DNA of 37,826 nucleotides from Saprospiraceae bacterium (GTDB taxonomy: Bacteria; Bacteroidota; Bacteroidia; Chitinophagales; Saprospiraceae), in NCBI GenBank assembly GCA_020848995.1, contig JADLHA010000045.1, positions 1 through 37,826 on the forward strand, given 5' to 3'. Positions 1 through 37,826 of this stretch are shown here, piece by piece. A program made the translations under genes and the position numbers. The notes beneath the pieces are model-generated. The model was not told the DNA's origin. It was given only the letters and a program-made list of their open reading frames with translations, and made no database searches. Within the stretch, counting starts at the first letter, position 1. The number at the start of each line of letters is the position of its first letter.

Positions 1-266
1 CAAAACAAGCCGAGGCGCAGCGAAGGAAGCTATGTGGAGCGATAACTGACTGAGCTGCAACGAAGGATTGTGAAGCTAAATTCATTGAGCGCGTGAGCCT
101 GTGCGGGCTGGCTGGCGCAGCAGGGAGTGGAGGGAGGCAGCCCCTGAGCAAAACAAGCCGAGGCGCAGCGAAGGAAGCTATGTGGAGCGATAACTGACTG
201 AGCTGCAACGAAGGATTGTGAAGCTAAATTCATTGAGCGCGTGAGCCTGTGCGGGCTGGCTGGCGC
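1..266. repeat. 148-bp direct tandem repeat, 1.8 copies
   Basis: Bases 1-148 form one unit and 149-266 repeat its first 118 bases without a visible mismatch. Each unit holds two related sub-blocks (18-41 and 54-76, both of the form GCnGC...GAAGGA...GTG-AGC). A hairpin-capable segment follows at 89-118: GCGC pairs with GCGC and AGCC with GGCT around a six-base loop, repeated at 237-266. Bases 118-143 are an inverted copy of part of the 41-bp repeat at the other end of the window (25 of 26 bases). All reading frames are cut by stops or are shadows, so I see no protein. The first 41 bases recur as the last 41 of the window, and a diverged copy lies at 10936-11040. Confidence 0.95.
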
Positions 267-278
267 TATTGGAGATTA

Positions 279-290
279 TTAGAAGTGCCC
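279..290. repeat. 12-bp arm, inverted copy of 37579-37590
   Basis: TTAGAAGTGCCC here is the exact reverse complement of GGGCACTTCTAA at 37579-37590. Each arm lies at the outer edge of a repeat block, close to the stop codon of the flanking gene (315 and 37578). If the window ends are contiguous, the two arms bound a repeat array of about 497 bp. A short half-echo follows here: AAGTGCCCTTAA (283-294) and AATTGCCCTTAA (302-313). Confidence 0.6.
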
Positions 291-314
291 TTAAAGTTTA
301 GAATTGCCCTTAAT

Positions 315-9689: not shown

Positions 9690-10787
9690 ATGACAAATTT
9701 CAACAGCATCGAAGAAGCCATTCAGGATTTTCGAGAAGGAAAAATCCTGATCGTTGTCGACAATGAAGACCGCGAGAATGAAGGTGATTTTATTTGCGCA
9801 GCAGAGACCATTACGCCTGAGCTCGTCAATTTCATGGCCAGTCATGGAAGGGGATTGCTTTGTGCACCTTTGGAAGAAGCCAGGGCGGATGCACTGCAAC
9901 TTCCCCTCATGGTCAGGAAAAATACATCCTTGCACGAAACAGCATTTACCGTATCGGTGGATCTGATTGGAAATGGATGCACCACGGGAATATCGACAAG
10001 GGACCGGTGTCTGACCATCCAGGCGCTATCCAATGAGCATTTTAATAAGGACGACTTTGCACGTCCGGGGCACATTTTCCCGTTGAGGGCAAAGCCGGGG
10101 GGGGTGCTTCAGCGGGCGGGCCACACTGAAGCGGTCATCGATATGGCACGTCTGGCCGGTATGGCACCCGCGGGGGCGCTGATCGAAATTCTGAACGAGG
10201 ACGGCAGTATGGCCAGGCTTCCTCAGCTTTTTGAAAAATCGGCAAAATTCGGATTAAAAATCATCTCTATCCACGATCTGATTGAGTATCGCCTGAAAAG
10301 TGAAAGACTCATTCAACAGGAGCGGACCATGATGGCAAACATTGGAGGGACTTCCTATCGCATCGTTCAATTCCGCCAGACCAATACTGAGGACATCCAT
10401 TTAGTTTTTGTTAAAGGAACCATAGATCCCGACGTTCCATGCGCAGTAAGGGTACAATACGCCGATCTGTACGTCGAATTGGTCGATCTACTTGTACAAG
10501 CGGAAAAGAGCATGTTGCGCAGGGCATTGGACGTCATTGAAAAGTCGTCTTGTGGTATATTGGTCTTGCTTTGCGGCCAGGAGCGATCAGAGAAGCCCTT
10601 ATCGCGTTTGGAACCCATTGGTTCAGAGGTTCACCGCGCGGAATACGAACAGCGCGAAATTGGCATCGGCGCGCAAATTCTCCGGGACCTGGCTGTTGGT
10701 AAAATGATTGTGCTTTCCAATTTTCCTAGGAAGCATGTTTCGCTTGAAGCTTATGGTTTAGAGATCGTTGGCTACGCCCATTTCTGA
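9690..10787 (+). CDS. ribB: 3,4-dihydroxy-2-butanone 4-phosphate synthase with degenerate RibA-like C-domain
   Basis: RibB makes the four-carbon precursor of riboflavin from ribulose 5-phosphate. Residues 1-205 carry its hallmarks: [10 protein letters not shown] (24-33) and [15 protein letters not shown] leading to QRAGHTEA (His145). Residues 206-365 align in layout with GTP cyclohydrolase II, as in bifunctional RibBA. However, the region that should hold the three zinc cysteines (HSEC...CDC) reads [13 protein letters not shown], and the GRGIGL-type motif is gone. Only the tail [21 protein letters not shown] and GLEIVGYA is recognisable. I infer an active RibB and an inactive RibA-like domain. 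It lies 2 bases after the GT2 gene, in the same transcription unit. Confidence 0.93.
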
Positions 10788-10826
10788 TGACATGAGAATG
10801 GGCTTCAATCGTCACTCCATTGGCCT

Positions 10827-11040
10827 AATGAAAAGGGCTGACTCACTTTGCTTTGCCTTGATGCCAGCATGAATGGAGGAACTCTTTTCATTCGATTTTG
10901 ATGCTGCTATGTATTCAGGGACTCAATGCGCAGTACAGCGAAGGAAGCAAAGTGTAGACATACCGATGGAACTGCAAAGGAATATTGTAAAGCCAATTTC
11001 TATGGGCATGCAAGTCAGGTCGAGGAGCCTTGCGCACTGG
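10827..11040. repeat. Diverged internal copy of the composite 41-bp/148-bp repeat
   Basis: Bases 10827-10873 match the 41-bp tandem repeat of the window end (37611 onward) without gaps at 36 of 47 positions by hand alignment. This includes an exact AATGAAAAGGGCTG and a near-exact TTGATGCCAGCATGAA. Bases 10936-11040 match the 148-bp repeat: exact CAGCGAAGGAAGC (10936-10948, same as 18-30), ATTGTAAAGC (10984-10993, compare 67-76) and GAGCCTTGCGCACTGG (compare 95-111). Order and strand are the same as in the terminal elements. The copy lies between the convergent ribB and porP genes; a short ORF across it is not credible. Confidence 0.85.
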
Positions 11041-11063
11041 GGAGATCGTTGTGGGGGTCTCGT

Positions 11064-12119
11064 TCAGAAAGCGACAGGAGCATCCTTCCCGCGCTCGTAG
11101 TCTCCGGATATCCGCAGACTTAATTCAAATGAATGCGTTGGAGAATTGTATTTGCTCGCATCGCGAATTCCAATGTCGTAATGAAGGCCTACGATTGCCT
11201 GATTAAACTCTAGCCCCAGTAAAAGGCCGAGGTCAACTGGAGTAATGCTCATTTCGCGGTTGCTCCAACGCCCGGAAAGTCCGGCATAGATGGCCGCTGC
11301 ATTTTTTGGGGGAAGGAGCTTCCGATAATGCACACCCGTTTGGATCAATCGGTGAGGTCCCTGGGCAAACAGGTAGATGCGAGGAAACAAGGCGTCCACC
11401 CTCGTATATGCATAGCGGAAATTGGCCGTCGCAACGATATTTCTAAATGCCGGCGCTTCCCGGGAACCTGTGTAATCTGGATTATCGTATCCATTGAAAA
11501 ATGAATGATCTGCCGACAGGATCTTGTCGGCAGAAAGTCCCAATTCCATACCCCATGCATTACTGAAGGAAGTCTGGTAGCGCAATCCGAGTTTTACAAT
11601 GGGAACGGCATGAATATTGGCGGGAAGCAGTTCACTGGTTGGCCGGTTATATGCTTCCAGACCGTCAAATTGGTCTTCGAAGTAAAGATGATCGTAATTC
11701 ACCGAACGTTGAACGAGCCCAAAGGACAATCCTCCTGAAAGAAAACTTTCAGTTCTTTTGTCAAGCAATTTGTGGTATGCCAGATGAAGCACCATTTCAT
11801 TTTTGTTCCAGTCGAACAATTGCGAACGATCTGTAGCAAAATAAACGCCAGCTCCAATGAAATCTTTGGTGACGAGGCCCTCTCCCGTGAGAAACTTAAT
11901 TTCCCCAGTAATGGCCAATTGGACGAATGGTTGATCCTGAAAGCCAATCCACTGATTCCGGTAAATGCTACCAACCCGGAAGTTTCCCCCGAAAAAACCG
12001 GAAGCAGCTGGATTGTAGTAGGCCCCAATGGCATTGTATTGCGAGAATTGAATGTCCTGCCCGGCGAGTCCTAGGCAAATGAATTGCAACAGCAAATAAA
12101 AAGTCAGTCTGGATGCCAT
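11064..12119 (-). CDS. PorP/SprF family type IX secretion system membrane protein
   Basis: This outer-membrane beta-barrel family supports T9SS secretion and gliding in Bacteroidota. After a signal peptide ending CLGLAGQ the mature protein begins DIQFSQYNAIGAYYNPAASG, the typical PorP/SprF opening (QFSQY...NPA). Many alternating strands follow, and a late conserved segment reads GLLLGLEFNQAIVGLHYDIG. From ATG 12119 it has 351 residues. A longer frame begins at 12140, but a near-consensus promoter at 12144-12151 would leave that start almost without a leader, so I prefer 12119. T9SS cargo proteins lie at 16134-18632 and 29590-31266. PorP/SprF paralogs often pair with one cargo; no SprE/PorE-like neighbour is seen here. 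Confidence 0.88.
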   Translation of the reverse strand: MASRLTFYLLLQFICLGLAGQDIQFSQYNAIGAYYNPAASGFFGGNFRVGSIYRNQWIGFQDQPFVQLAITGEIKFLTGEGLVTKDFIGAGVYFATDRSQLFDWNKNEMVLHLAYHKLLDKRTESFLSGGLSFGLVQRSVNYDHLYFEDQFDGLEAYNRPTSELLPANIHAVPIVKLGLRYQTSFSNAWGMELGLSADKILSADHSFFNGYDNPDYTGSREAPAFRNIVATANFRYAYTRVDALFPRIYLFAQGPHRLIQTGVHYRKLLPPKNAAAIYAGLSGRWSNREMSITPVDLGLLLGLEFNQAIVGLHYDIGIRDASKYNSPTHSFELSLRISGDYERGKDAPVAF

Positions 12120-12143
12120 ATTTTTGATTCCGGTTCTCATGGG

Positions 12144-37578: not shown

Positions 37579-37590
37579 GGGCACTTCTAA
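37579..37590. repeat. 12-bp arm, inverted copy of 279-290
   Basis: GGGCACTTCTAA begins immediately after the photolyase stop codon and is the reverse complement of 279-290. It marks the outer edge of the 41-bp array. Confidence 0.6.
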
Positions 37591-37593
37591 AAA

Positions 37594-37780
37594 CTCCCTG
37601 TTGCTGCCAGAATGAAAAGGGCTGCCTCCCTGCCCTCCCTGTTGATGCCAGAATGAAAAGGGCTGCCTCCCGCCCCTCCCTGTTGATGCCAGAATGAATA
37701 GGGCTGCCTCCCTCCACTCCCTGTTGATGCCAGAATGAATAGGGCTGCCTCCCTCCACTCCCTGTTGATGCCAGAATGAA
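37594..37780. repeat. 41-bp tandem repeat, about 4.6 units
   Basis: Units start at 37594, 37635, 37676 and 37717, with a partial fifth at 37758. Each is 41 bases and begins CTCCCTGTTGATGCCAGAAT, with single-base variants (GCTGCC in unit 1) and two flavours of the last four bases (TGCC/CGCC versus TCCA). There are no unique spacers. The period is not a multiple of three, so the long minus-strand open frame across it is fortuitous. The junction segments 37701-37726 and 37742-37767 match 118-143 in inverted orientation (25 of 26). Confidence 0.95.
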
Positions 37781-37785
37781 TTTAG

Positions 37786-37826
37786 CAAAACAAGCCGAGG
37801 CGCAGCGAAGGAAGCTATGTGGAGCG
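37786..37826. repeat. Partial copy of the 148-bp repeat, identical to 1-41
   Basis: The final 41 bases are identical to the first 41 and in the same direction. The window therefore ends inside the repeat unit that it begins with. Confidence 0.97.

Follow-up and report, generated by a model that had tools for sequence, protein, structure and literature searches.

Prokaryotic MITEs were reviewed in 2024 (PMC10969869), and two of those described from Porphyromonas gingivalis, PgRS/MITE464 and BrickBuilt, contain internal tandem repeats of 41 nt (PgRS) and 23 nt (BrickBuilt), the terminal inverted repeats (TIRs) of PgRS/MITE464 being of IS5 type (as outlined in PMC4596501). The locus analysed here lies between a ribB-type and a porP-type gene of a Saprospiraceae bacterium, in a contig of 37,826 nucleotides (JADLHA010000045.1, assembly GCA_020848995.1) whose whole length is referred to as the window. 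We conclude, with a probability of about 0.92, that the diverged repeat at this locus is a decayed copy of a small non-coding MITE, probably mobilised in trans by an IS5-family transposase. As far as the literature on Saprospiraceae or Bacteroidetes MITEs, IS5 and tandem repeats was searched, this MITE family was not found among the matches listed.

The original prediction placed a diverged copy of a composite repeat at 10827-11040, with a 41-bp and a 148-bp module in the same order and on the same strand as at the window ends. Both modules are present there. In the direct-repeat search, 10827-10881 aligned without gaps over 55 nt to the 41-bp array at 37611-37788 (69-73 %), and 10917-10959 matched the 148-bp module over 43 nt (65 %). 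Comparison of 10780-11060 with the whole genome by blastn gave at least 29 matches at E 0.001, with 40 of 61 first-look candidates scored, and the best non-self match among the candidates scored in the source genome had an E value of 1.9e-8. A family profile, built from 46 of the 53 listed elements with the window copy excluded and seven left out by choice, matched 10882-11051 with 61.7 bits (E 1.8e-18) and a single one-base gap. When 10780-11063 was dinucleotide-shuffled 1000 times, 33 shuffles had any profile match, the best with 4.4 bits, and the reversed window reached at most 6.5 bits. The copy thus scored above all 1000 shuffles, and both modules recur many times across the genome, so that the refuting condition set with the original prediction did not arise; the results agree with its claim of a defined composite element that was present at different times.

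Although a copy does lie at 10827-11040, that span proved too short. In the two-unit consensus alignment the copy ran from approximately 10800 to 11062 (+ strand) with 63 % identity over 260 columns, and the raw score was 215 with two 41-bp units as compared with 174 with one. The decayed copy at 10800..11062, delimited by this alignment and the profile match, therefore consists of two 41-bp units and one core, all on the + strand. The first unit, which carries the block AATGAAAAGGGCTG, occupies 10827..10867 according to the direct-repeat family and the consensus alignment; the second, more decayed and recognized by the alignment score, occupies 10868..10908 (boundaries approximate for both); and the decayed core, corresponding to the 148-bp module of the original prediction, occupies 10909..11051 and retains the loop block GAAGGA with its pairing partly gone. 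The left neighbour is a ribBA-type gene (9690..10787, + strand; DHBP synthase plus GTP cyclohydrolase II, PF00926 and PF00925), and the right neighbour is a convergent porP/sprF-type gene (11064..12140, - strand; PF11751), the stop codon of which abuts the copy. The porP end has been retained, since its C-terminus is similar to that of a sister genome of the same genus (G145), both finishing in AF. The copy is old and strongly diverged, as had been claimed: in addition to its 63 % identity, its profile score ranks tenth from the bottom of 72 merged loci in the stretches examined, eight of the nine lower-scoring loci being matches of at most 67 bp. Because only a rough left TIR remains and no target duplication is readable, we infer the boundaries of this copy.

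Well-preserved members of the family are cut by the contig at both window ends. The right part of one lies at 1..290 (+ strand), identified by repeat, profile and covariance-model matches, with two cores at 148-bp spacing and its right TIR at 279-290; the left part of another lies at 37579..37826 (+ strand), identified by repeat and profile matches, with its left TIR at 37579-37590, five occurrences of GCCAGAATGAA at 41-bp intervals and the start of a core. The 12-mer search also returned an extra TIR-like site, GGGCAATTCTAA, with one mismatch at 298..309 (- strand), immediately beyond the right end of the 1-290 element. At least 24 of the 104 contig ends of the source genome (G000) lie within 60 bp of a MITE copy, window positions 1 and 37826 included, so that the repeat probably breaks the assembly, and the MITE family accounts for a repeat that disturbs it. 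A second repeat family (TTTGGTTACTTTCTTTTGC or its complement) was also seen nested in TIR-bounded composites, several with tandem arrays of their own (L113 at G000 C27:37652 and L118 at G000 C31:25559; L243, L241, L240 and L244 in G145).

A single mobile element, a MITE with TIRs and 4-bp target duplications, accounts for the composite repeat; both modules are tandem units inside its TIRs, a point that the original prediction had not foreseen. The intact MITE is 185 bp long and, in the source genome, sharply bounded, with GGGCACTTCTAAAAACC or GGGCACCTCGAATAACC at each end, inverted at the opposite end, and an interior made up of a left part, repeatable as 41-bp units, followed by a core that is a long imperfect hairpin. 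Tandem repetition of the inner modules makes copy length vary roughly as 185 + 41a + 148b bp; among 13 lengths picked by hand from the pairs of the source and sister genomes, ten fitted this expression within 2 bp, and the other three were off by 4, 7 and 14 bp. The 12-mer GGGCACTTCTAA, with at most one mismatch, occurred 84 times in the source genome as compared with 10 for the reversed control, and paired TIRs were present in copies of both genomes. Exact 4-bp duplications flanked 20 of the 51 paired elements of the two genomes (53 listed minus nested duplicates), as compared with a mean of 5.7 and a maximum of 14 in 10,000 flank permutations; seven were TAAA and seven TTAA, with mostly T..A sequences overall, and the other 31 elements had no exact duplication. 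The MITE is short and has no transposase gene, its duplication-bounded copies measuring 119-1087 bp, and in the sister genome target duplications also enclosed entire arrays (841, 859 and 1087 bp). The spacer between the 148-bp units (window 118-147) is the reverse complement of the spacer of the 41-bp units (37635-37757), as also seen in minus-strand matches of query 118-143, which hints, from the sequence, that the arrays may have arisen by hairpin template switching. By eye, MITEs of another genus (G272, G105 and G185; L331, L332, L337 and L342) have inserted modules of their own, e.g. GCCGCC..TTCAGCG.TGGCGC, indicating that module gain is not special to the source genus.

The family is dispersed in multiple copies, with 72 merged loci in the stretches examined, and two loci are empty or nearly so in the sister genome. 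At the orthologous, near-empty ribB-porP site of the sister genome the gap between the stop codons is 13 bp, as compared with 276 bp in the window, and the flanking gene DNA is 78-79 % identical, suggesting that the window copy was inserted or else was lost from the sister genome. Four other genomes of the genus gave no DNA-level match to this locus, so that, without an outgroup, a deletion in the sister genome could explain the absence. At the second locus, the sister genome lacks the element (G000 C52:16449-16818) in its syntenic stretch. Searches with element DNA returned 144 matches in the sister genome and none in the four other same-genus genomes searched; among 298 genomes of the family, with two candidates scored per genome, three matched, including the source genome. 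Two pattern scans of viral contigs and one distant search of plasmids with a G299 element gave no match. Flanks 99-100 % identical between the source and sister genomes were observed at C18:30471-30696, C32:77559-77743 and the left flank of C43:41674 (G145 C25, C13 and C12), and the elements at C18:30471-30696 and C32:77559-77743 are themselves 100 % identical to the sister contigs; other syntenic stretches are 78-86 % identical. Such flanks point to recent exchange or bin contamination and may blur which copies are native.

The likely mobiliser of the MITE, judged by matching ends in relatives, is an IS5-family insertion sequence (IS). The TIR was searched in 398 genomes of the family, 95 of which had a match, mostly at the level of one or two per genome that the control also gave, and the enriched ones were followed. 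One of these relatives, G342, carries a 1269-bp IS at three places with TIRs GGGCATCTCTAAAAACT/GGGAACCTCTAAAAACC, with exact duplications at two loci (TTTA and TTAA) and the third interrupted by N beside the end. A second, G009, carries a 1268-bp IS without an exact target duplication, so that exact 4-bp duplications were found at two of the four loci; elsewhere it carries MITEs of 185 bp, whose TIRs are near-identical and whose duplications are exact. The IS proteins, of 345 and 354 aa, matched the NCBIfam model transpos_IS5_4 with 282 and 271 bits (cut-off 140), as well as PF01609 and PF05598. The two IS tested have ends, and not interiors, in common with the MITE, the best profile matches being of at most 2.5 bits and located at the IS ends. 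A tandem-repeat MITE is thereby tied to a probable IS5 mobiliser within one bacterial family.

No PF01609 match over the cut-off was found in the source or sister genome, the control being a match in 9 of 14 named genomes, and a single fragment of 21.5 bits, below the cut-off, was present in the sister genome. The case for the mobiliser therefore rests on the relatives, and since multi-copy IS can go missing from draft assemblies, the absence of the transposase from these two genomes is weak evidence; their MITE copies may be stranded without a PF01609-type transposase. An autonomous element within either genome was sought and rejected, as the long pairs among TIRs up to 1.5 kb apart in the source genome and up to 3.5 kb apart in the sister genome, within the stretches examined, enclosed ordinary genes, arrays or the second repeat family. 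Five ORFs in or beside long TIR pairs of the sister genome corresponded in Pfam to a subtilase, OmpA, TPR/PMT, one without a family and a DDE_3 fragment, none of them IS5. IS630-type elements duplicate TA, and for this reason the DDE_3 fragment (119 aa, G145 C30, L244:1544-1903), which lies beside a broken family member, was not taken as the mobiliser.

From the matching ends, we infer mobilisation of the MITE by the IS5 transposase of relatives. Acting in trans, this enzyme would cut at the inverted repeats of the MITE and duplicate 4 bp of the target, mostly T..A; the inner modules would grow by slippage or recombination, the transposase would later have been lost in the source lineage, and the window copy would have fallen into the short convergent ribB-porP gap and then drifted.

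Other Saprospiraceae genera have MITEs with the same TIR and duplication, which was exact in 6 of 11 short elements; in a further set, 13 of 24 TIR pairs had an exact duplication, a generous count because, at loci offering several possible pairs, one flanked by a duplication was favoured, and no pair was obtained at 16 of 40 loci. Of the 11 short elements, 9 exceeded the inclusion threshold of the family profile, which includes the TIRs (best E 9.8e-14). In a comparison within the genus, on a core structure taken from the fold of one row, 21 copies of 179-185 bp presented 41 double-change cells as compared with 23.2 in shuffles (reached by 0/500; slid registers gave at most 24); doubly changed pairs (152/500 shuffles) and pair types (365/500), two of the five within-genus covariation measures, were not raised above the shuffles. 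Across five genera, 12 cores presented 39 double-change cells against 13.7 (0/500; slid registers at most 11) and 12 doubly changed pairs against 7.6 (1/500), and the further pair types were reached by 38/500 shuffles. Concerted changes in the stems included GTTTC/GAAAC, GTCGT/GCGAC, GAATC/GATTC, GCAGC/GCTGC and GCGGT/ACCGC. The internal loops of the core, GACGAGGC / AACGAAGTAT and GAAGGA / TGACTGA, are conserved and give repeated GA/GA mismatches; their invariance is overstated, however, since the search expression, matched by 27 of 88 elements, partly determined which loops entered this alignment (A2), the 12 rows of which were chosen and trimmed by hand. The stem covariation in A2 is free of the loop selection, although the structure used is the fold of one row (G299).

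Of 40 loci picked by their TIRs in other genomes, four of which hold training sequences, 23 were matched by a core covariance model; outside the training loci the model matched 19 of 36, down to 14.4 bits. It also matched five of 30 further sources, among them one with a training sequence, and did not match the IS loci of two genomes. In the window, the model found both cores at 1-224 and the cut core at 37786. The genera with a core were g1, g10, g25 (by its training sequence only), g105 and g112, and weakly g39 (only 24-26 bits). It is possible, and we put this forward tentatively, that the core represents a structured nucleic-acid motif, new and conserved in the Saprospiraceae, with freely covarying stacked stems and conserved internal loops, which might serve as a signal for a transposase complex or host protein or be a transposon-borne RNA. 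Why the inner core should have kept its fold across genera in an element lacking a transposase is a puzzle.

The original prediction also saw a hint of constraint on the exact blocks of the window copy. A rival reading takes the repeat as a conserved cis-regulatory RNA or bidirectional terminator for ribB and porP with those blocks under selection; we consider this highly improbable. The copy does lie between convergent genes and keeps two blocks of 13-14 identical bases; the two longest exact runs together have a P value of 0.03, but the longest, of 14, is not unusual at 63 % identity (P 0.12). On either strand, 10800..11062 folds no better than shuffles (z +0.34 / +0.96), as compared with fold z values of -3.1 to -9.5 for five intact copies on both strands. 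Covariation, for which the prediction had suggested a test, is present at the family level and could be taken as support; it does not extend to the window copy, which the core covariance model did not find at E 1. No promoter or terminator match was obtained in 10700-11150 and no tRNA gene in the window; Rfam gave no match at the gathering score when the window and six loci were scanned, and a scan of five loci gave one match (E 0.54), below its gathering score. In addition, the same place in the sister genome has no copy, and the family has no clear orientation preference relative to genes (8 sense, 8 antisense, 8 convergent and 4 divergent, from 28 of 53 rows scored with rough gene calls and one locus counted twice). 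The block CAGCGAAGGAAGC overlaps the core loop GAAGGA, indicating that what was noticed is a family-wide part and is not specifically kept at this copy. The claim of constraint was thus not sustained: the window copy represents ordinary decay, the part of interest is the family core, and the stretch 10800-11062 should not be called a conserved regulatory element.

Another reading treats the intact element as above all a functional, structured RNA or DNA element that is spread by transposition, the window copy having decayed and lost the function. The covariation of the core stems across genera (39 against 13.7 double-change cells, 0/500) and the matches of the core model among TIR-picked loci would fit, and we rate this reading as rather unlikely, given that G-U versus A-C mismatches (91:43 in alignment A1, 14:20 in its inner stems and 16:9 in A2) name no consistent RNA strand, that orientation to genes shows no clear preference and that two of the five within-genus measures fail against shuffles. 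Moreover, paired changes could arise with no RNA function if quasi-palindrome correction acted between the two arms of an inverted repeat. As for two unrelated repeats adjoining by chance, the numbers of 41-bp and 148-bp modules do vary independently, but the modules stand in a fixed order inside one TIR pair in many copies of two genomes, often with target duplications, and this map of TIRs and duplications contradicts chance adjacency, which we regard as barely credible.

Taken together, a decayed MITE remains our preferred reading of the window copy, and its family is a new one of a known kind, the minisatellite-bearing MITE. Compared with the IS5-family IS that match transpos_IS5_4, the MITE has TIRs in common, with a 4-bp duplication at two G342 loci, and differs in having no transposase gene and an interior unlike that of the two IS tested. 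The BOX elements of Streptococcus pneumoniae, as described in PMC3049150, are likewise modular and base-paired, with variable inner units, TIRs and target duplications; BOX has boxA, boxB and boxC modules and evidence of transcription, whereas the Saprospiraceae MITE is described here from its sequence and is likened to BOX by description (PMC3049150). The closest resemblance is to PgRS/MITE464 and BrickBuilt, which according to the description in PMC4596501 also belong to the Bacteroidota and have inner tandem repeats, IS5-like TIRs and variable length, BrickBuilt being in addition intergenic and of limited host range, as is the Saprospiraceae MITE. The TIR differs (GAGAC.. against GGGCAC..), and the duplications of BrickBuilt are of variable length, whereas those of the Saprospiraceae MITE are of 4 bp (PMC4596501). 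Unlike PgRS and BrickBuilt as described there, the Saprospiraceae MITE, likewise characterized here from its sequence, repeats two module types and has a covarying core common to several genera.
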